Of a stretch of 64,000 bases of DNA, positions 16,704-57,300 are shown one piece after another (within the stretch, counting starts at the first letter, position 1; every line of letters starts with the position of its first letter). The notes beneath the pieces are model-generated. The model ran no database searches. It was given only the letters and a program-made list of their open reading frames with translations, and had not been told where the DNA came from. Origin of the DNA: Thuidium tamariscinum. Its lineage: Eukaryota; Streptophyta; Bryopsida; Hypnales; Thuidiaceae. The translations under genes were made by a program, and so were the position numbers. The stretch spans positions 28,784,347 to 28,848,346 of the forward strand of contig OX344753.2 in the NCBI GenBank assembly GCA_947034885.2, written 5' to 3'.

Positions 16704-18024
16704 ATGGAGGGTTTGGTGTTGAGATCGACTGTGACTGCTGCACAATTGAGCGGACGACCAGCTCGTGGTTTCCTTGGGCCGCTTTCACTCCGTGTAGGGC
16801 AGCAGCTGCAGCAGAGTCAGCAATGTGGGTCCGGTATGAGATTGAAGAAGCTCCGACTACGGCATTCGTGGCTGAGAGCGTCCATAAGGGTAAGTTGCTT
16901 TACTTGTGATTTAGAATTTTGTTTTTCATGTAGTTTCTTGCGCTTGTAAGCAAACAAGAATGAGTGTGAAGTGAAATAGAAGACAAGTTGTGAATAAATG
17001 ATTTTGTTCGGTGTGTGAATTGTCCGACTGCATCTGAGGTCTTCGCGAGCTCGCCTTGGAGTGAGTGAGCTAGTGAAAACCCTGTACTCTTTGTGTGCCA
17101 GAATTTTACTGACGAATTAGAGAAGAATGTTCTTTATCACCTCTGTTTAGCATCCACATGTTGGAAAGATCAATATACACAGAGTCGGAGTTGTTGTTCT
17201 GACATCAGAATCTGGACACGGCATATGTTACCTTGTGAGATTAGCAAGAAATGGTTGGAATAATGATTCCATAGCAATCTACAAGTAATGCAGGAATCAT
17301 AGAAAGGCTTCAAGGAACTTTAGTTTTTGAGTGTCTTTCCTTTTCTATGACACTCTGCAGGACGTGGAAAGGATGCTTCGATCGGGTGACATACAAATTA
17401 TTGCCCCTCAAAATGCCCAGCCATTGCTATCCGACGAAATCTCCGCGTACAAATTGCTGGATGTTCGACCGATGTGGGAACGGGAGAAAGCCTATGTTGC
17501 GGAATCCATCCACGTGCCTCTGTTTGTTGAAGACGAGGCCACAGACGCCTTGACGCTGTTGAAAAAGCAGATCCAGTTTGGCTTCGGTGGCGCATGGCTT
17601 GGACAACGGTTTACGAAACAGAACATGAGTTTCGTTGCTCAAGTCGAGGAAGTTCTCCCAAGGAAGAACGATAAGATTATGGTCGCATGCGGCGAGGGAA
17701 TGAGGTTAGTCACTCCCAACATTTGGGTCAGTCTTTCATCGCATTGGGAAACTCGGGCAAGACTGACCTGCATGTCTGGGATTTGTACGGGGCAGGTCCA
17801 TGATGGCAATCGAGGAGCTGCGGAAGGCTGGATATGGCGAACTGGCTTGGCTTGGGGGTGGTTTCAACAATGTGCGAGATGGTGACTTCATAACAGTTGA
17901 GAATGGCACGAAATTGCAATGGGCAACTGTAGGTGGTGCTTCGGAGCTTTTCCTGAAGTTTGCTGTGCTGTTGTCTGGTGTATCAAATTCAATATCCGGC
18001 TCCTCTGCCGTCAAAGACAAATGA
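16704..18024 (+). CDS. STR10: Rhodanese-like domain protein, STR10 type, plastid
   Basis: Three exons (16704-16889, 17361-17704, 17796-18024) with GT-AG introns join in frame to 252 codons. Residues 1-62 are rich in Arg, Ser, Leu and Gln with few acids, as in a chloroplast transit peptide. A single rhodanese domain follows: the LLDVRPMWEREKA segment, then HVPLFVEDE, then the active-site loop CGEGMR (Cys172 to Arg176, the CX4R pattern), then GWL-like AWLGGGFNNV. A hydrophobic stretch near the C-terminus (KFAVLLSGV) could be a membrane anchor. The order and wording of these motifs match Arabidopsis STR10 (At3g08920) as I remember it. Sulfurtransferase activity is plausible because the Cys is kept, but the substrate is unknown. 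The start is the first ATG giving a transit-like N-terminus. Confidence 0.88.
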
Positions 18025-40739: not shown

Positions 40740-41840
40740 CAAGGCATAAATTTGACACCCTAGCCAAATTTCTAGGGGACACCCTGGTCAAAATTTTAGG
40801 TGTCAAAAGGACACCCTTGTCCAATTTTTGGGTGTCCCTAATTTTCCATACATTTTTTTTGGTTAGTTAGAATATTCTCAATTTTGAAAAATTTGTAATA
40901 TCAATATAAATTTTTTGTTACAAATGAAAAGAGTCACTATATATCATAGCGTACAAAAGAAAACAAACCTACAAGCCGCGACCTTTCATGGCACACCATT
41001 TCACCCAAACTTGTTCAAAGTCAATGGCTTCTATAGGAATTTTTGCCATTGCAACTCTCATTTTTGCTTCCAAAGTCTCCAATACTAAACTAGAACGTAA
41101 ATTAGACTTAATATGATTTTGAGTAGAAAATCCCCTCTCACAAGAAGCTGTGCTAGCAGGAATTACAAGAATACTTTGCCACAGCTTGGACATGTGAGGA
41201 TATCTTCCAATATAGTCCAAATTGGAAGAGTACACCATCCAAGCTTGGTGCATTTTCAAACCACCACATGAAATTTGAAGAGTATCCAAAAAACCTCGAA
41301 GCTCGGATTTGAAACCACGCTCATCAAGAAAATTCCCTCCATTGGTACAAAAGTGCTCAATAAAAACTTTAAGCCATAAAGAAGCATTTCGGTGAAGAAG
41401 TGCCAAATCTGCTGAAAAAGAAATGGGGCTAAATAGCTTAGCTGCATTGAAGATCTTCAAATCTAGAAATCGTTGTTGCAATGACTCTAACACTTTGAGC
41501 ACATAAGCCAGTGCAATCACTCTACACCCGTGTAAGGTGCCATCACCACCAAATTCAAGTGCATGGGGCAATGGTGCATAATGCAATATATGTGAATGCA
41601 CAACTCTTGTGGAGTCTTGGAATTGAATTTGACCACCTCCCTGCCATATCCATGAATCTTCCAAACTTGGGGTCTTGGGGTCATGGGGTACGGGGGACAC
41701 CCTACAAAAATTTTGGGTGTCAAAAGGACACCCTTGTGAAAATTTTGGGTGTCCTCGGGGACACCCTGTTTGAGATTTGGGTGTCTCAGGACACCTTTGG
41801 AGACAAAATACACCCCCCAGGGTGTCAAATTTATGCCCTG
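40740..41840 (-). mobile_element. hAT transposon, internally deleted derivative with perfect 8-bp target duplication
   Basis: The 1101-bp element is bounded by inverted ends CAAGGCATAAATTTGACACC and CAGGGCATAAATTTGACACC. It is flanked by the identical 8-bp sequence GTGGGCCG (40732-40739 and 41841-41848), as hAT elements make. Both subterminal zones (about 40.75-40.85 and 41.69-41.83 kb) are packed with GGTGTC/GACACC motifs in both orientations, the kind of array hAT transposases bind. It carries only the C-terminal part of a transposase on the minus strand, so it is a deletion derivative. It lies 22 bp right of the candidate Mutator-like element and marks the edge of the gene island. Confidence 0.9.
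40969..41690 (-). pseudogene. hAT transposase, C-terminal fragment
   Basis: An open minus-strand frame ends at 40969 and carries the hAT C-terminal dimerisation region: PASTASCERGFSTQNHIKSN, then LRSSLVLETLEAKMRVAM. This is the ERxFS...KS..R pattern of plant and animal hAT proteins, including the ZNF862-like group. Upstream residues (SADLALLHRNASLWLKVFIE and the GFLDTLQIS region) look like the helical domain before it. The N-terminal zinc finger and the first catalytic Asp region are absent. The same frame runs on into the subterminal repeat to about 41865, but that part (Gly/Pro/His/Thr-rich) is repeat-derived and not protein-like. The reading frame is still open, so this copy is young or was deleted cleanly. 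Confidence 0.8.
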
Positions 41841-41848
41841 GTGGGCCG

Positions 41849-42270
41849 GTATCCCAGTGAGACATCCAGTGATCGAATTGGGTCAGATCGATTTCGTTGA
41901 TGTAATAAGCTTCAGGAGTGATGAGTTAGTCAGAATTGAACTGCAATGCCGAAGAGTCCTGCCCGCCGCCCGCGTTGCCCAGCTTCTCCGGAAGGACTGA
42001 ATCTGGATCTCTCTCGCAGTCTCGCACCATCCACTATTCCACTCAGATTCAAACACCAGGCACCGACCGCACATTCTGAGCCCTTCAGAAGCGGTATTCT
42101 CGCACCCGAAAATTTGCTCACGAACGTTGGCTCACACCACTGTCCTCCTTCTCCATGGAAAAGCCCTGGAACTGACTGCATTCGGCATTTCCGGTAAGTT
42201 CAGTTAATTACCACAGGCCCTCGCGAGAAGCTTAACGGACGCTGGCCCTGTGCGAAGGATCTTCCTGCCC
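41849..42270. other. Balanced-composition intergenic, nothing recognised
   Basis: GC-rich spacer between the hAT and the Mutator-like element. The overlapping ORFs here show no family resemblance. Confidence 0.35.
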
Positions 42271-42279
42271 GCTTAAGTT

Positions 42280-43467
42280 GGCCAGGGTGAATTGACCCCC
42301 TCATTGCCCCGAAAGTGGATGGATGGGGATGAGGGGGCCATTCCTCTGTGCTTTCCCTTCGTCCTCACTCCACCCTTCTTCCTCCCGCCTTCTTCCTCCT
42401 CCCTTCCCCCTCCGACCTCCCACTCGACCTCTGACCTGCCTCCCTGCCCTCCCACTCCCTGTGGATGCTTTGGGTTTCTATTTGTTTTTTGTAGAAGTAT
42501 CAATGTGTAGAGGAATTCTTGAGTTTTAGAGGAGTTCTTGAACGCATTTCTAATCCTGCTCACCTCAAATGTTGGTACACTGTTGTTGTGGTTGGTTAAG
42601 TCGAGCAAACAAGTGCGGTGTATTGAAATTCTCATTTTGTACTCTTGTTCCGACTTCGAAGAATGATTCAAATGCAGTTTCTGACAGATTCTAGTCAGCC
42701 AATGTGTTAATCTCAATGCCAAAGATTATAACATTCGATCAATGCAAGTGCATGTACACAATTCCACATGCCCAGTGCTCTAAAAACTCGGACTGGAATA
42801 GATCTCAAGTTTCAGTTTGGCAACTACAACTGTGTCGGTTTAATTAAAACCTGCCACTGACTGGTACAGATGTGAAGCTTGAACTGATTAAAGTCTGCTA
42901 GCACCCAATTAATGAACTGTTCTTGTTTTAACAAAGTTGTACTTTGGGTTCACTTGCAGAGTTGAAGAATTTCCAAGGGAGAGATTGAGAGCATTGAGAT
43001 ACAATACGTAAGTTCACGCTCTAATCATGTCAACTTGTTCGTTGGTTTTCTTGTTTCTTATATTAAACTCGAAATTTCAAACAGACCATACTTCTACGAA
43101 ACTCTAGATCCTCATTTCATGGAGCTTCAACAAGAATGAAAATAATGCAATTCCATAACAACAAGAAAGCTTTTGCAACAAAGCATCCAACGTTTTCAAA
43201 CATTCACAGAGCATAGACATTTGGAGCAGATTCGGTGAGGAAAAGGAAGGGAGCTTCAACATTTGAAAAACACTCGAGAGCAGGAGAAGAGCTTCCACGT
43301 TTGCAGCAAGCCGCAGGGAGGAAGCGGGAGGGCAGGGAGGCAGGGAGGCAGGTCGAGTGGGAAGTCGGAGGAAGAAGGCGGGAGGAGGAAGGGGATGCAC
43401 AGAGGATTGGCCCCTTCATCCTATCCATCCACTTTCGGGGCAATGAGGGGGTCAATTCACCCTGGCC
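42280..43467. mobile_element. Mutator-like element (non-autonomous) with long inverted ends and perfect 9-bp duplication
   Basis: The 1188-bp element starts GGCCAGGGTGAATTGACCCC and ends with its complement. The inverted ends run for about 170-190 bp (roughly 42280-42460 and 43315-43467) with small indels, and are rich in CCTCC/GGAGG. It is flanked by the identical 9-bp GCTTAAGTT (42271-42279 and 43468-43476). Long ends plus a 9-bp duplication are the signature of the Mutator superfamily. The AT-richer centre encodes no transposase. Proline/glycine-rich ORFs across the ends come from the repeat. Confidence 0.88.
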
Positions 43468-46471: not shown

Positions 46472-49400
46472 ATGTCGCTCGAGAACCTGATCAAGATGCA
46501 AAGCTCTGGCGTGCGCAGCATCGAGGATCCCAACACGCCGCGGCCGGGGGGCGTGCCGCAAGGCGCAGTGCTGGTCGCATTGGATGTGACCAAGGAGATT
46601 GGCACCGCGGCCGTGTACTGGGCGCTGGGCAATGTCGTCCGCCGCGGGGACAACTTCAAGATCGTGGGCATCATCACGCACGTCTCCAATCCATGTACCT
46701 TCCTTCTCCTGCGCGAGATGATCATCGAGCTCGATTTTTAATGCCTGCTGAGTTGCGTACTCCAATGCTGGTCGTTGCTAACGGGATTGTTTGTTCCTGC
46801 AGTGGGATTTAGGACACGGGTCGACAAAAACAGTTGGATCGGCAACAATGGGATCATGCTGCAACACGAATTCAATCTGAAGCGCAACGTGCTGGAGAAT
46901 ATCCCTCATGTCAAGGAATGGTGTGAAAAAGCAGGAGTAAGATACATTACAATCCAGACTGTGGTATGTTCAAAATGCCGAGGTTTGTAGATTGATCGGT
47001 AATCACTCAAATTTTTTGGGTGCTGGATACATTGCAGGCGAAGCTAGAGGTGGAGGTGAAGGCTGGGTACCAAGTGAAGACGATCATTGTCGACGAAGCA
47101 AAAGCTCTTGGCGCCTATCACGTCGTCCTCGACAAGTAAGCTTTAAATTCTTAGTTTCAAGTATTACCGGAATTGACGACATTTTTGGGGTTTGAAATAT
47201 TGTCGATCGTATATATTTAATTCCTGAATTGATTGCTTCGCATCTTCTAACGACACACGCAACAATGTCGGGAAGTCATCAAATCCTTGTGGTGCGTGAA
47301 AACGCTTGAGGACAGCAATAGTATTAATAAATTGTCGTTCTCAGTACCTGCTCCCATTTGTGATCGATACAGGACAATGAAGAGCGATCGGAAGTACTAC
47401 GTGGATCATCTGACGTGCTTTGTGTCGAGGGCACGCAACAGTGGCGGCGTGGACACCATCCGCTCGTTCTCCGTTTCGAAGCAACTCCCGCCGCTGGTGC
47501 CGACCCCGCCCAACACCACACGCCACGGGCTGCCGTCGCCACCCCTGCCGCAGCAAATCCACACGTCAGGATCCAACGCCTCCATGGCGTCCCTGGGGTC
47601 GACGCACTCGGTCTCGTCGGGTTCCTTCGAAATGATTTCCAGTGACGACTTCCTCACTCAGGACAGTGATTTGTTCTCCGTAGCGCCCACGACGGAGGAG
47701 TCGCTCGATCGGCATCCCGTGATTCAGGAAGCTCTGACGCACCGCGCGTCTCTACCCCTGCGCAATGGCAACGGGAACAAGGCGGAACCCACAGGGTACA
47801 ACATGGTGAATCGGAAGCCCGCTCTGCACCAGGAGCTGGCGGAAGATTCATCAGATTCGCAGACTGAAGCACATTCAGAGTCCACTCCAAGCTCCTTCAT
47901 GGAGCCTCGACCTTACAAAATCCTGGGACCTGCGCCGGTCATCGATCAGCGCGAGCAAGTGCGACGGACCCCTGTGGAGAAAACGATGCACGCGGCGCCG
48001 CTGCCCCCGGCCCACGTCAAATTGCACCCTCCGCCAGGCAGGACCAACGCAGGAGCTCCGGTGCTCAAACCATTTGCGAAGGAGACAAGCATGGTGAGCA
48101 GCAGTGCGCTCCTCTCGAGGATGCCGTCACCGCCTTTTAGCAAAGTGTTGCAGAGCTTGTCGAAGACTGTGTGGGTTTGGACGCGCAGCAAGGAGGTGAT
48201 GCGATGTGCTGTGGAAGTAGGCTGGACCACGTTCATTTTCACTCCCGACACCAAGTTTATGGCCCCGCAATGGACTTGTACGTACAATCCAGCACCCAGG
48301 TCGGGTAGTCAATATAAAAATTAGGGTTTCAAGGATGAGCTCACTGTCGCTGCTAGCTCCGGATCAGAGTTTGATCCGCCATTGACGAAATGTGTTGTGT
48401 TATGCTTTTGGTTCCAGCGATCGAATGGATTAAGCCGTTGTTTTTGGAAGGGGGCCGGTTCTTGAACCAGGAGGGCAGGCAAGTGGCGCTTCTGGGTCAG
48501 GTCTACTCTGGCGAGCAGCTAGACTACCTGCCTGCAATGATGGGCGGGGCGGAGACCGTTGTCATTAACGACCTCGATTGGCAGGTTCGGAAATTGATCG
48601 ACTGCTCTAAATTCAACTTGACGGACGCAATCTCAGTGGTTCTTTTGGCAAATTGTGACATTTATGCGTTGAAATTAGGACTTTCCAGTTCTCAGTTGGG
48701 TTTTGGGTTTTCTGAGTCATTATACCTCCAAACTCTGCAGCTCAGGAGTCTGTAGTATAAACCTGAGATTTCAAATGAGTGTTTCAAGTCGCTTCAGTGC
48801 CATCGGGCTTCTTAACCGGCTCTGCTCCGGTTCGTAATTGAGAGCTCTGTTTTGGATGCGAATTATTTGTGAAATTAGGCCGATGTACCGTTTATGACTA
48901 TGCAGAGTAGGCCACAGGAAGATTGCGTCGTTTTGAAATTTCAGAGTTTTTCTTGGGATCACTCCAAGCTGACAATGCAGCGCCTCGTGCAGATTATTTC
49001 TCCTGAAGATGTGGTCGCCGCTTTCCAAGGTCGACGCACTCGACTCTTTGCTACCACCACCACCGCAGCCGACGCCCAAGTGTATCTGGAGGTACCGGTT
49101 CATTCATTCAAATCTTTGGATTGCAAATAGACTGATTCGCGATTGAGGATCCTGAAATAATTGAATCATGAGTTGGGAGAGCAGCTTCAATGGCATTCAG
49201 AATACGGCATTGGAATGTTGTTATCATCATACTGTTCACTGAAAGCACCTGAACACTAAACCAGATGAATGCGTTGGAATCTGCAATGTGCCTTATAATT
49301 AATGTCGTTAAAGTTGTGTTGATGTTAGCTTATTATTTGCTGGAGTCTATTATGATTCGTTCATCGGAGGTCTCCCTAAGGTCATAGTTATCATGCGGAC

Positions 49401-51146
49401 TCTGTTGCGATTGCAGGCTCTGGATGTAGGCATGGATGGCGTGGTGCTGCACACCGAAAACGTCTACGAAATCGGTACCCTGAGGGTAAGAGCTCAATTG
49501 TCACTCAAGATCTTGGTCGCCTCACACCGTCCAATTATTGATGAGAATGGAGAGCTTTGTTTTGATCGAATTCTACAAAACGGCCTGCTTCAGAGCGTCT
49601 AAATCGTGACATTCATTTGACTCAGAGCTCTAAAGACGACGACTGCTAGAGATTTGAGGTTCCATACATTCGTCTTAAAGTGCCTATCGCAATGTCGGAA
49701 TTTGACGTGGAATGGTCTGATTGCAGGACTATTTGATGAAGAAGAAGATGGAGAAGGAGCGTGCTATCGAGTGGGCAAACACAGAGCCACCCATCAAGGA
49801 AGTGGGTGAGGAGCCTGAAGTGACGGAGCAGCTTCCCGGATTAACGCCAGAGCCTTCGCTGTCGCGGTCTGAAACAACGAAATCAGACACCCACGGCAGC
49901 TTTCATCGAGTGGCGTCCTCCCCAAGATCTGATGCCAATCCCCTCAACCGTGTTGGCTCGTCGCCGCGGTTGGTAGACGACAGTCGTGCAAATCCCAGCT
50001 CAGCTGTGGGTCCGCTTTCGGCGTCGCAAGCGCCTCAACCCGGATTGAGATTCGTGAATGCCACCGTCAAGAGTGTCGTTTCTGTGGGCGAGGGCGATCG
50101 GGTGTCCGTGGACCTCTGCAATCTCTTGAATCCTGGCGAGGCTTTACTTGTAAGATAATTCCCCCACTTTCTCTCTTCCAAGGCGAATTCCCTGTATTTG
50201 TGGTTTCGATTGCAAGAGTGCTTTTGCAAATTCTTGTTCTAATTTGTAGCCTCTTGATTCGTGTTAGGTGGGCTCTTTTTCCAAAGGCATGTTTCTGGTG
50301 CATTCGGAGATCCTTGCCAACAACACAAGCCGGAAATCATTTCGTGTCAATGCGGTGAGTGATGATTGATGCCGTTACTGTCTGTTCGAGTTTGCGATTT
50401 CAGCGGTGCGATTATGTCTTACTTTCAACATCTAGCCCTACGTGATTCTGAGCCTCAGAATCTCATCTTTAAGTATTGGAGATTTCAAATCGTACTTCCT
50501 AAAGTCCCTCCACTCGTAAAGCAGAAATGTTGAAACTCCGGAATTCCGAGTATGCCAAGAACTGTAAAATGTATGCACCGAAAACTAATGGCTATAGCAG
50601 TTCCCAATTCCGGCGTAATAAACATGCGTCTGGAGCTAATGGCCGGCCGGCGAGTTCCTTTGGCAGGGTCCCGTGCATGCCTACACAGGCATGGCAGGAG
50701 GACGCATCACTTACTTGTCGGAACTGGAGTCGGGAGGGCAAGTGCTGGCGGTGGATGCGCTTGGCAACTTCCGCACAGTTCTCGTGGGCCGTGTTTGCAT
50801 CGAGTCCAAGCCTCTTGTGCTTGTGGTGGTGGAGTTTGGAGGAGACAGTTTTAGCGTCATGCTACAAGAGTCAGATTCAGTTCGCCTTGTTATCCCTTCA
50901 GGTGCGTTGATTAAACCGCATCCGCTCTCGCTCTGATTGTCTAAGATTTTCCTTCTGTTGCCGGTGGCCATTGCCATATTTTGAGCATCTACCATTGAAT
51001 ACATTTGGCAATCGCCTAACCAACGTGGATGTTCCTGTTCTTTAGAGCATCAAAGTCCAGGCAATGAAGCCATAGCCGTTACGAAGCTGCAACCAGGGGA
51101 CATTGTCGTCTTGAGTATGGAAGACGACGACGTACACGAACAGTAA
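46472..51146 (+). CDS. Fusion protein: USP-like domain + 3-dehydroquinate synthase II homologue
   Basis: Eleven exons (46472-46694, 46803-46963, 47038-47135, 47373-48277, 48418-48584, 48945-49091, 49417-49485, 49727-50149, 50268-50354, 50667-50901, 51046-51146) join in frame to 871 aa. Residues about 25-190 match the USP-like N-terminus of plant 'inactive kinase' receptor-like proteins: AVLVALDVTKEIGTAAVYWA, then ALGAYHVVLDKTMKSDRKYY. A Ser/Pro-rich linker follows (about 190-424). Residues 425-871 are DHQS-II: KTVWVWTRSKEVM, DGVVLHTENV, GEGDRVSVDLCNLLNPGEAL, FRVNAGPVHAY, YLSELESGGQVL, VGRVCIESKPLVLV. Archaeal DHQS-II makes 3-dehydroquinate from an amino-sugar precursor with NAD. Plant homologues exist, normally plastid-directed and of unknown role. 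Oddities are a Ser/Pro/Glu-rich insertion of about 90 residues (about 600-695) and a C-terminus that stops before the family's ARHxG tail. No kinase domain is present. The start is the first ATG in frame. Confidence 0.85.
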
Positions 51147-51515: not shown

Positions 51516-51566
51516 AAATTAAGATGAAATCTGTGGAATCAATGCACACAGATTTCATCTTAATTT
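51516..51566. repeat. Perfect 20-bp hairpin between converging genes
   Basis: The left arm 51516-51535 and right arm 51547-51566 are perfect inverted complements of 20 bp with an 11-base loop (51536-51546). It lies 370 bp after the fusion gene's stop and 72 bp from the dirigent gene's stop, so it is probably in the 3' UTR of one or both transcripts. AATAAA precedes the left arm by a few bases. Confidence 0.8.
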
Positions 51567-51638: not shown

Positions 51639-52319
51639 CTACTTACAGATGAAGACGTTCCAATGAAACTTGAAGCGGGCGCCTTCGTTAGGAACCTTCT
51701 CCACCAAGGCATAGCCGTGTGCTCCACGGAAATGGCCAGTGCCACCAAGGATGATGAGCTCATACGGCTTCACGACCCCGCCTACATTGCCGTTGAAGGT
51801 CAGCGAGGAGCCATTGTATTTCCCTTCCGTGAAGGAGATCTTGCTCAACAGCTGCAACGCTTCCTTGCTCTCTATATCCGAGACGACGCCCCAGCCACGC
51901 TCCCGCCCTAACAGCGTGGTGTCCGCGCCAATGCCCTCTCGCACTTCGTTGTCGAACACGAAGGAGGAGCCCCACTGCAGCGGCTTCGTGTTCACGGGCA
52001 GGTTGGCTACTTTCAAAGTGGCCGTGGTGTCGCTAGGATCTGCGGAGCGAATCTCGTGGATGTAAAACTCCAGCGTCTCCTTCACCTTCTCCTCGTCGCT
52101 GTGCGTGAGGAGCTCCTTCAGACCACTTCGAACTGCAACTCTTGATGACACACGGCGCTTGATTGGGGAGCTTCTTCCCAAACTGGTGAAGTCTCCGGAG
52201 CGTCCATAACTGGGCAGGGCCAGGGACGAGGACCGGAACATGGAAAAGAGCTGCTGGCGCGAGGATGTGATGGCTGCGACAGCCACGGAACTTCGTTGTA
52301 GGAGTAATGTGTTAGCCAT
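51639..52319 (-). CDS. Dirigent-domain protein with a plastid-type N-terminus
   Basis: This is a single-exon gene of 226 aa. The dirigent signature runs from about residue 82: LEFYIHEI, TTATLKVANLPVN, WGSSFVFDNEVREG, LLGRERGWGV, then SFTEGKYNGSSLTFNGN and the closing LGGTGHFRGAHGYALVE. Dirigent proteins form trimeric beta-barrels and steer the stereochemistry of phenoxy-radical coupling in lignan and related pathways. Most are secreted. Here residues 1-66 are rich in Ser, Arg and Ala with almost no acids and no clear signal-peptide core, which looks more like a chloroplast transit peptide. The usual VFDDPLT is VFDNEVR, so a conserved Asp is Asn. It shares the barrel fold with allene oxide cyclase, but the motifs are dirigent. 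It converges on the fusion gene (stops 493 bp apart). Confidence 0.82.
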   Translation of the reverse strand: MANTLLLQRSSVAVAAITSSRQQLFSMFRSSSLALPSYGRSGDFTSLGRSSPIKRRVSSRVAVRSGLKELLTHSDEEKVKETLEFYIHEIRSADPSDTTATLKVANLPVNTKPLQWGSSFVFDNEVREGIGADTTLLGRERGWGVVSDIESKEALQLLSKISFTEGKYNGSSLTFNGNVGGVVKPYELIILGGTGHFRGAHGYALVEKVPNEGARFKFHWNVFICK

Positions 52320-54352: not shown

Positions 54353-57300
54353 TCACACATCCCCTTGCCTGCCGACCTTCACTGCAGCTCTCCAAGAACT
54401 AATCGCATCCTTGTACGGGAAGTCCTCCAGAGAGAAATACTTTTGGCCGAACATGTGCACGACAAGGGGAAGGTGCTTCCCCAACCTATTTCTATGGCAT
54501 GACTTCAAGAACTTTAAACTTGAAAAGCACCTCTCGTCTTCAACAGACCCAAGGACTAGACAACATCCGATCTCCGCCACCTTAAAGTACTCCGAAATTA
54601 GTTTACAGAGATGCCGTGACTGAGACAGTCGGTGCAAGAGCTTAATAACCGGGTTCACGTCCAGTGGTGGGCCGCAAGCCAAGTCACAGTTCGCTTTCAT
54701 CGTGATCTTAAACAGGCCTTGCTAGAGGTCCAGATTCGAAGCACTGAGCATCTCCGGCGCAGCGAGAGGCTGGCCAGCTTTGGTGAAAGAGTGCCCATTA
54801 TTAACGAGCCTGGCCTTACAATAGAATTTCTTCAGAATTGCTAAATGGTATGAAAAGCTTGCCTCGGCCCCTTCCTGCCTCCAGTATTGTGGATAAATGA
54901 TGCCAAAAGCATCAAGAATATCTTGCTGGGGAAAGCATCGATCCAACTCGGAACACAAAGACTGAGCAATGTCTGACAAGAAACCGCAAGACACAGCAAT
55001 CAGTCGCTCATTCAATCACATTATATAACATCAATAGAAAAAACAAATCGCAGTACCAAAGCATGAGTGCAGCACCTGTGGCTTAAATGGAGAAAGCATG
55101 AACATAAGCCTAAAATCTGAAATCAAGAACAACAACGCTGCACAATACCGAATAGACAACTGAACAGACAGAGTGACCGACTGATCGCAGTTCAAGTACG
55201 GCACAATGACAAATAAAGGAAAGAAACAGGATTGGAACACTTTAAAGTTTCAACTTCACTAAACTGTCCATTCATAGCTGAAGAGAACTTCTGAATTTCT
55301 GATTAAGTGTTACTACATTCTAAATCCTTCACTGCACAGTGAAAAACACACAAAACTCACAGCACAATTTAAAGTTTAATCACATTAACAATTGAAGTAC
55401 ATCAAGAAATCTTAAACCAGTTTAGAAACATTGACATATACTTAGCTTCTTACCAATTTAAACACATTCAAACACATTGAAATCTTTAAATTACATTCTA
55501 AACTATTTGAAGAAGGATATAGAAAAAAAATGGGGAAAGTATGAACTCATTCAACCAACTAAAACACAACAAACACTTTGAATTGATTCCTAACTACACA
55601 ATGAAAGAAAAAAAAAATGGGGAAAGTGAAAGAAAACCCTCACCTGTAAACTGCCGTTCAATGTTGTCCTGTAGACGATGAAAGTCTTGCTGAGTAACAA
55701 AAATATGTTGCCCAGTTTGTTTATCATGGCAGCGGCCATAGACTTGTGTTACAGACAGATCAAAAAACAGATGTGCCCATCCCGTTGTGCCAGGTATCTC
55801 CTTCCATTGCAAAGGTATGTGCTTGCTTTGAAGAGATATGATCTCGTTATAGGCAGGAAAGTCGACCTTGTTGAAGGCAAAAGCACCATCAAGAAAAAGT
55901 CTGGCCAGCTCACTTTGACACACCTTAATTGCTTGCATAAAATCGCAGACAAAAATGTCTCGGGCCTGAAACAGCTTGATCAAAGAGTAAACTACATTTA
56001 CTAAAGGAATGAACAAAGCCAACAAAAGAAGCACTTCGATGTCAGCAAGCAAGTCAAAGTTATCGGCTGCCCCAGCGACAGTCTTGTGGCCAGGAGCAAG
56101 CGTCATATCGATGCCCATTTTCAAAAGCAGAGTACTATACTCAGCCAAGATCCGCTGCGCTGGACTCCTCATGGATATCCAGCGCGTTTCAACATTGCGG
56201 AGCATCTTTGCTCCCTTAGTTTCCATGAGATTTGCGAGCTTCTGCAGCTCAGCATGTCGTTTGCTACTACGGCAGAAGTATGAATAGATGGACTGAAAAA
56301 GCCCCTCCAGTCTAGAGACCATGGGATATTTGGAGAGAGTCTCCACGACCAAATTTATCCTATGACTCACACAACTAGCTCCCAACAAGAAGGGGGCCCA
56401 TTTCTCTCGGATTTGTACTGTAACACCGTTTTTGGAGCCCTGGAAGGTACTGACTCCATCGGCTCCAAAACAGACAAGTTTGGAAGCAATTTCCATGTAG
56501 CTCAAACCTCCCTCCTCTACCAATGCACGCATGATAACAGCAGTGAGCTGATCCGCAGTCCCACCGTCACTCAAACAGGACAAATGCAACAGATGCGGTT
56601 GTCTCTCCCAACTCTCAACGACATACACATGCACACAGACCCAACTCGTATTGTCTACAACAGTGACCTCATCTGTAGAAATGGAAAGGAACTTGGCAGA
56701 CTGGACAACAAGCTTCAAGGTAGACAAAACACAACCATGCAAATGCTCGCTCATTTTCCACCCTGTACTTTCGGACCAGTACTTTCTAGGCAAGTTTTTG
56801 ACCTTCAAGTGTCTAAGCAAGTATTGTTCTCTCTCATAATCACAAAAAGGTCAACCATGACAAAGAACTTGAAAGAGTGTAGAAAATTGAACCTCTTTCC
56901 TTTTGAAATCGCCCTCCACACCTGCACACAATTGATCAGCCACAGTACCACTTTGTTTCCAAGCGGCCCAGAGTTTGCACATTTTGGCGTGCTTGCAGTC
57001 GTCCTTCACGAAATAGTCTCATTTTTTCAAGTGCGGTAGGGGAACTCCATCCTCTTGGCATACTCGTTTGCCCTCATGCTTTTCGAGATTATCAGCCTTT
57101 GGAACAAGAACTTTCTTCCTCCCCGTGATTGCTGTACAGCTCAAGCAAATGACACCAGATAGATCTCCGTTGGAATCAAACTGCCCCTCCGCCCAGGCAA
57201 ACTTACACGCCCATACTTCTTGCCATCATCTGTTGATGGTGCCTGGTGCAATTTTCACCCTCTTGCGCTGCAAGTTCCCAGCCCCTCCCTTCTCCCTCTT

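Follow-up and report, generated by a model that had tools for sequence, protein, structure and literature searches.

3-Dehydroquinate synthase II (DHQS-II) and the classical dehydroquinate synthase (DHQS) of the plant shikimate pathway belong to different families. On the archaeal side, an excerpt of PMC4162585 describes the H. salinarum pair OE1472F/OE1475F, in which DHQS-II acts after the heptulosonate synthase, and notes that an involvement of the M. maripaludis homologue has been disproved. An excerpt of PMC3608921 gives plant DHQS as monofunctional and single-copy except in soybean, so the shikimate pathway should not need a fusion protein, and an excerpt of PMC8921776 reports a gene annotated as DHQS-II at the Corylus S-locus. 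Here we describe a gene at 46472-51146 on the plus strand of a 64,000-nucleotide window of Thuidium tamariscinum (assembly GCA_947034885.2, contig OX344753.2, positions 28,784,347 to 28,848,346; coordinates below are those of the window), which may join a region likened to universal stress proteins (USPs) to a DHQS-II homologue. Among the titles listed in our literature searches, none concerned a USP/DHQS-II fusion.

We favor, tentatively and with somewhat less than even confidence, the interpretation that a single nuclear plant gene here encodes a chimeric protein of ~855 residues, in which a USP-like domain and a ~240-residue linker precede a diverged DHQS-II domain that is split by a second flexible insertion and no longer makes dehydroquinate.

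A single frame across exon 4

As had been proposed in the sequence-only reading that preceded this work, the eleven exons read in one frame, from ATG 46472 to TAA 51146. Every intron has GT-AG borders. After the correction of one exon edge, the product is 855 residues long, and its 855 codons are free of stops and frameshifts. Retention of any of the ten introns would bring in at least one in-frame stop. Exons 1-3 have GC contents of 0.58/0.36/0.72 by codon position and no in-frame stop, while the other two forward frames hold seven and two; since introns 1-3 all carry in-frame stops, these exons require splicing. No second copy was found in the window by a tblastn self-search (E ≤ 1). The gene model is largely right, apart from the one wrong exon edge, and the domain combination is plausibly new.

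The join itself lies within exon 4, which was correctly described beforehand as a stop-free passage from the end of the N-terminal region through the linker to the start of DHQS-II, inside an open frame of 357 codons (47251-48324). Over the 250 codons (750 nt) of the linker, the GC content by codon position (0.59/0.52/0.72) resembles that of the neighboring exons. There are 4-6 stops in each of the other five frames, and a base shuffle stays open in frame in 2 of 5,000 cases. When exon 4 was divided into 150-nt windows, the third codon position was the GC-richest in 10 of 13, tied in one and not the richest in two.

The exon edges given earlier hold for the chain overall, with the exception of the start of exon 6. 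Beginning this exon at 48945 adds 16 residues (SFSWDHSKLTMQRLVQ) between DW and IxPxE that have a counterpart in none of the 86 prokaryotic homologues assembled for comparison (see below), in all of which the conserved W is separated from the I of IPLE by just two residues. With a start at 48993 this spacing is regained without a change of frame, and the Pfam DHQS score, previously 246.1 bits, becomes 265.3 bits. Four extra residues would remain if a third acceptor, at 48981, were used. We therefore treat 48993 as the predicted main form of the exon 6 start.

A diverged relative of archaeal DHQS-II

On sequence grounds, the C-terminal part of the protein is a true DHQS-II relative. The corrected model matches Pfam PF01959 (DHQS) in two stretches at 8.8e-79 and 265.3 bits, against a gathering score of 22.2; the uncorrected model had already matched at 1.1e-72, which upholds the earlier assignment of the C-terminal half. 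The absence of a kinase behind the linker was likewise confirmed, as Pfam at E ≤ 5 matched only DHQS across the exon chain. Searched against the PDB, the plant DHQS-II part gave two weak sequence matches (best E 0.64), and the family profile gave nine at E ≤ 1, none of them named DHQS, led by PLZ2.3 (6e-4) and followed by designed TIM barrels and others.

Relatives were collected from genome contigs with a family alignment (A2), which returned at least 570 relatives among 594 stretches, and the best 80 were used; with six plasmid loci they make up the comparison set of 86 prokaryotic homologues. A single DHQS-II sequence as query found no relative in the genome contigs. The closest relatives by tblastn, among the best 80 of at least 570, are archaeal, with the best E-value in Methanocaldococcus and identities of up to 40% in Altiarchaeales. 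In a tree of 87 rows the plant domain groups with four archaeal rows (support 93/77); its end branch is the longest of all (2.47), and its position is therefore unsure. The family was found in 3 of 14 control genomes, all three archaeal, and the cyanobacterium Synechococcus elongatus was not among them.

The DHQS-II query found no relative among phages or viral contigs and matched 13 plasmid records, from which six loci (L001-L006) were examined. All six are annotated as 3-dehydroquinate synthase II and share 24-32% identity with the plant domain in two alignments. Five of them (L001, L002, L004, L005, and L006) adjoin a gene annotated as 2-amino-3,7-dideoxy-D-threo-hept-6-ulosonate synthase. 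Klebsiella michiganensis is among the plasmid hosts with this pair, which perhaps serves specialized metabolism.

Loss of conserved positions

The plant domain departs from this family at positions that the 86 prokaryotic homologues almost all keep. Conservation was counted for each row over those homologues that share under 50% identity with it. Of the columns conserved to at least 97%, the plant domain keeps 25 of 36 (69%); the lowest of the prokaryotic rows keeps 35 of 38, and the median is 97%. The homologues had been found with a pattern lying in the FRVNAG block, and only the best 80 were taken, which biases such a count; ten columns within the search pattern were therefore dropped from the count of fully invariant columns, of which the plant domain keeps 13 of 19 and the worst prokaryote 19 of 20. 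The N-terminal starts of the homologues were chosen by rule, so that their first residues are approximate.

The six lost invariant positions are P114, C294, G306, K381, R385, and the Gly of RHxG (numbering of the 448-residue query). Three of the changes fall in motifs that are intact in 86 of 86 homologues: the Lys of VGRxKxExRP has become Cys, the Cys of RVCVD has become Ser, and the Gly of RHxG is gone, the plant domain stopping short of the conserved tail after RH. It also scores below the cut-off of all seven NCBIfam models that it matched (best 203.5 versus 485 bits); as controls, an archaeal homologue (L007) passes three models and the bacterial L005 passes none. With 6 of 19 invariant columns lost, a working shikimate-type enzyme is doubtful, and the plant domain is probably not a working dehydroquinate synthase.

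An insertion between the two halves

In exon 8, 103 residues stand between flanking columns that are 5-20 residues apart in the 86 homologues. The exon alone matches Pfam DHQS (5e-6), and the insertion alone has a weak codon signal, being open in 237 of 5,000 shuffles. The predicted structure of the archaeal L007 (mean pLDDT 90.6, pTM 0.64) consists of an alpha/beta half and an all-beta half, and the 86-residue insertion of the plant protein maps to the boundary between them, at L007 residues 177-181. In a PDB fold search with this model, the leading matches were TIM-type barrels, with a best TM score of 0.38 by query length and 0.65 by target length; from the secondary structure, we infer that these matches would belong to the N-terminal half.

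The N-terminal region and the USP label

The N-terminal region had been identified as a USP domain of the kind found in front of plant receptor-like kinases, and this could not be substantiated. Residues 1-186 match no Pfam family at E ≤ 5, and the region has no PDB sequence match at E ≤ 10. Against our own profile of 14 prokaryotic USPs it scored 0.6 bits, a value exceeded by 15 of 300 shuffles, and hhalign placed 112 columns in the expected order at a probability of 0.2%. The profile was examined by leaving out 6 of the 14 members in turn; five of these reached 84-130 bits and the sixth 1.2 bits, which means that a divergent USP may escape the profile. Viral contigs held no relative of the N-terminal region, and a plasmid search with it returned a single match (E 0.6) that we judged to be chance.

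The description of the domain as nucleotide-binding likewise lacks support, because the G-2x-G-9x-G(S/T) motif is missing from the first 200 residues. This is the USP ATP motif, which not every USP has. In agreement with the earlier view, the stretch around VVLDKTMKSDRKYYVDHLTC is presumably similar to the domain that fronts plant USP-type receptor-like kinases. "USP-like" is therefore used here as a working label for a putative resemblance.

Alternative readings of the locus

The same exons could instead yield two products, either the long protein together with a short plastid DHQS-II begun at 48091 or two adjacent genes overlapping in exon 4, and the USP-like part would then have little to do with the enzyme. 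We consider this rather unlikely. It draws on an in-frame ATG at 48091 (agcATGg, with A at -3 and G at +4), Met 401 of the long protein, which opens MVSSSALLSRMPSPPFSKVLQSLS; SKTVWVW follows, where the DHQS-II homology begins. The 24 residues directly before that homology include eight Ser and nothing acidic, and they might once have served as a plastid transit peptide or might do so in an alternative product. This transit-like stretch leaves room for a separate plastid product, so that the removal of the transit peptide by the fusion, as proposed earlier, is only a possibility; the first 40 residues of the full protein, four of them acidic, do not have the look of a transit peptide. The dependence of exons 1-3 on splicing, given the stops in introns 1-3, the meager codon-position bias of the 99 codons before 48091, and the existence of the Corylus gene annotated as DHQS-II (excerpt of PMC8921776) would all suit two products. 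On the other side, all 239 exon 4 codons that precede 48091 are open and the first part of them is clearly coding-biased, neither of which a 5' untranslated region would need, and six other in-frame ATGs come earlier in the exon. The open frame across these codons favors the long protein. The ATG at 48091 may be left over from a DHQS-II gene that predates the fusion, or it may still be used as a second start.

It seems to us improbable that the domain is an enzyme still active on a different substrate, performing NAD-linked chemistry on another sugar or amino-sugar under regulation by the USP-like domain. Many invariant residues are kept within the two matching stretches, and the family has members with other roles, namely those covered by an NCBIfam 3,4-AHBA synthase model and the M. 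maripaludis homologue described as not involved (excerpt of PMC4162585). What speaks against such an enzyme is the loss of precisely the Lys, Cys, and Gly that all 86 homologues retain, the six plasmid loci included. More doubtful again is the idea that the locus is in decay or misassembled, or that the exons line up by chance, and that no such protein is made. Exons 1-3 lack homology in the tests made, the DHQS-II part is highly diverged, and the upstream flank carries the remains of a hAT transposase as well as an element with inverted repeats, all of which would be in keeping with decay; a pseudogene so diverged should hold stops, yet there are 855 codons without stop or frameshift, codon-position bias over most of the chain, and GT-AG borders throughout.

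The chimeric protein with a non-catalytic DHQS-II domain has points against it as well. Its exon chain is predicted from genomic sequence, and no profile backs the USP-like label. The last 99 codons before the ATG at 48091 (47794-48090) have a weak coding signal (0.66/0.49/0.65) and one stop in each other forward frame, so the open frame there is poor support for a long protein. The domain keeps E116, R292, D296, FRVNAG, Y343, R379, E383, P386, and H446 (numbering of the 448-residue query), and with so many conserved residues some catalysis is possible. Because L005 fails every NCBIfam cut-off, the NCBIfam test alone is weak. Finally, the comparison rows are all prokaryotic, and the losses may be common to active plant DHQS-II. 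The Arabidopsis homologue presumably keeps several of the lost residues, which we take as a lead only.

Possible origin and function

If the chimeric protein is made, its most likely origin would be the recombination of a duplicated N-terminus of a USP-type receptor-like kinase gene ahead of a DHQS-II gene. Given the lost residues and the plant pathway's own DHQS, we infer that a pseudoenzyme or a re-purposed ligand-binding module, perhaps with a regulatory part to play, is the likeliest role for the DHQS-II fold, which would bind a ligand or dock another protein in a product made outside the plastid. The USP-like domain would then contribute dimerization or partner binding, and the linkers would act as flexible tethers that may be phosphorylated. 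Going further, a land-plant lineage might have turned DHQS-II into a non-catalytic receiver in the place of the kinase of a USP-type kinase, giving a signaling protein that senses, outside the plastid, some metabolite related to sugars or aromatic compounds; we offer this as speculation and think it unlikely.

As one protein, the product would place a degenerate shikimate-type enzyme family in an apparent signaling-protein context. It would make the role of the DHQS-II-type genes annotated in plants testable, and it would show that such an annotation in a plant need not imply dehydroquinate synthesis.

Features of the gene and its neighborhood

Table 1. Predicted parts of the gene at 46472-51146 (window coordinates)
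Feature	Position	Strand	Content and basis
Exon 1	46472..46694	+	Start codon and first part of the N-terminal USP-like region; open frame, GT donor; coding-type GC over exons 1-3
Exon 2	46803..46963	+	USP-like region; AG/GT sites, phase kept
Exon 3	47038..47135	+	USP-like region; AG/GT sites, phase kept; intron 3 with 5 in-frame stops
Exon 4	47373..48277	+	End of USP-like region, Ser/Pro-rich linker, DHQS-II homology from about 48160; open reading frame 47251-48324
Transit-like stretch	48091..48162	+	24 residues, 8 Ser, 0 acidic
Exon 5	48418..48584	+	DHQS-II N-terminal half; Pfam DHQS
Exon 6, corrected start	48993..49091	+	Homologue alignment; Pfam score +19 bits
Exon 7	49417..49485	+	DHQS-II N-terminal half
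Exon 8	49727..50149	+	End of N-terminal half, 86-residue low-complexity insertion, start of C-terminal half
Exon 9	50268..50354	+	DHQS-II C-terminal half
Exon 10	50667..50901	+	DHQS-II C-terminal half; K to C and R to K in VGRxKxExRP
Exon 11 and stop	51046..51146	+	Conserved tail after RH missing
Domain layout, 855-residue form			USP-like 1-182; linker 183-423; DHQS-II N-terminal half 424-593; insertion 594-679; C-terminal half 680-855

Downstream, a Dirigent-like gene (51642-52319, minus strand; PF03018, 1e-25) lies tail to tail with the fusion gene and has an N-terminal extension of ~80 residues before its domain. This neighbor, like the intron structure, points to a plant origin of the locus. 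An assignment of this neighbor as an allene oxide cyclase was rejected, as two PDB searches gave no match and Pfam identified Dirigent. Between the two convergent genes, a hairpin has perfect 20-nt arms (AAATTAAGATGAAATCTGTG) at 51516-51535 and 51547-51566.

A few kilobases upstream of the fusion gene, an inverted repeat of 62 nt (42280-42341 and 43406-43467; 89% complementary, arms separated by 1064 nt that include more inverted arms) is likely a small transposon. A 318-residue open reading frame at 40972-41925 on the minus strand contains a hAT transposase dimerization region (PF05699, 5e-9), and four copies of a 48-nt repeat are found near it, at 40758-40837 and 41707-41786. Elsewhere in the window, a 418-residue open frame on the minus strand (55597-56850) has no Pfam match at E ≤ 0.1 and is presumably derived from a transposase, and a rhodanese-like stretch on the plus strand (17331-17882) scores 20.2 bits, just below the Pfam cut-off of 22.2.

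Comparison with known systems

The fusion protein shares only a product name with the classical plant DHQS of the shikimate pathway. Its N-terminal region is similar by eye to universal stress proteins (PF00582) in the order of its hydrophobic stretches and differs from them in having no Pfam match, no ATP motif, and a profile score within the range of shuffles. With plant USP-type receptor-like kinases it may share the N-terminal region and a Ser-rich linker, the difference being that DHQS-II stands here in the place of the kinase, of which Pfam finds none. The plasmid relatives L001-L006 keep the invariant Lys, Cys, and RHxG that the plant domain has changed. Measured against DHQS-II of the MJ1249 or AroB' type (PF01959; NCBIfam PRK02290), the plant domain lacks 6 of 19 invariant columns and the tail, has an 86-residue insertion between its halves, and falls below the cut-offs of the NCBIfam models it matched, whereas it exceeds the Pfam gathering score and keeps FRVNAG and most of the invariant glycines.

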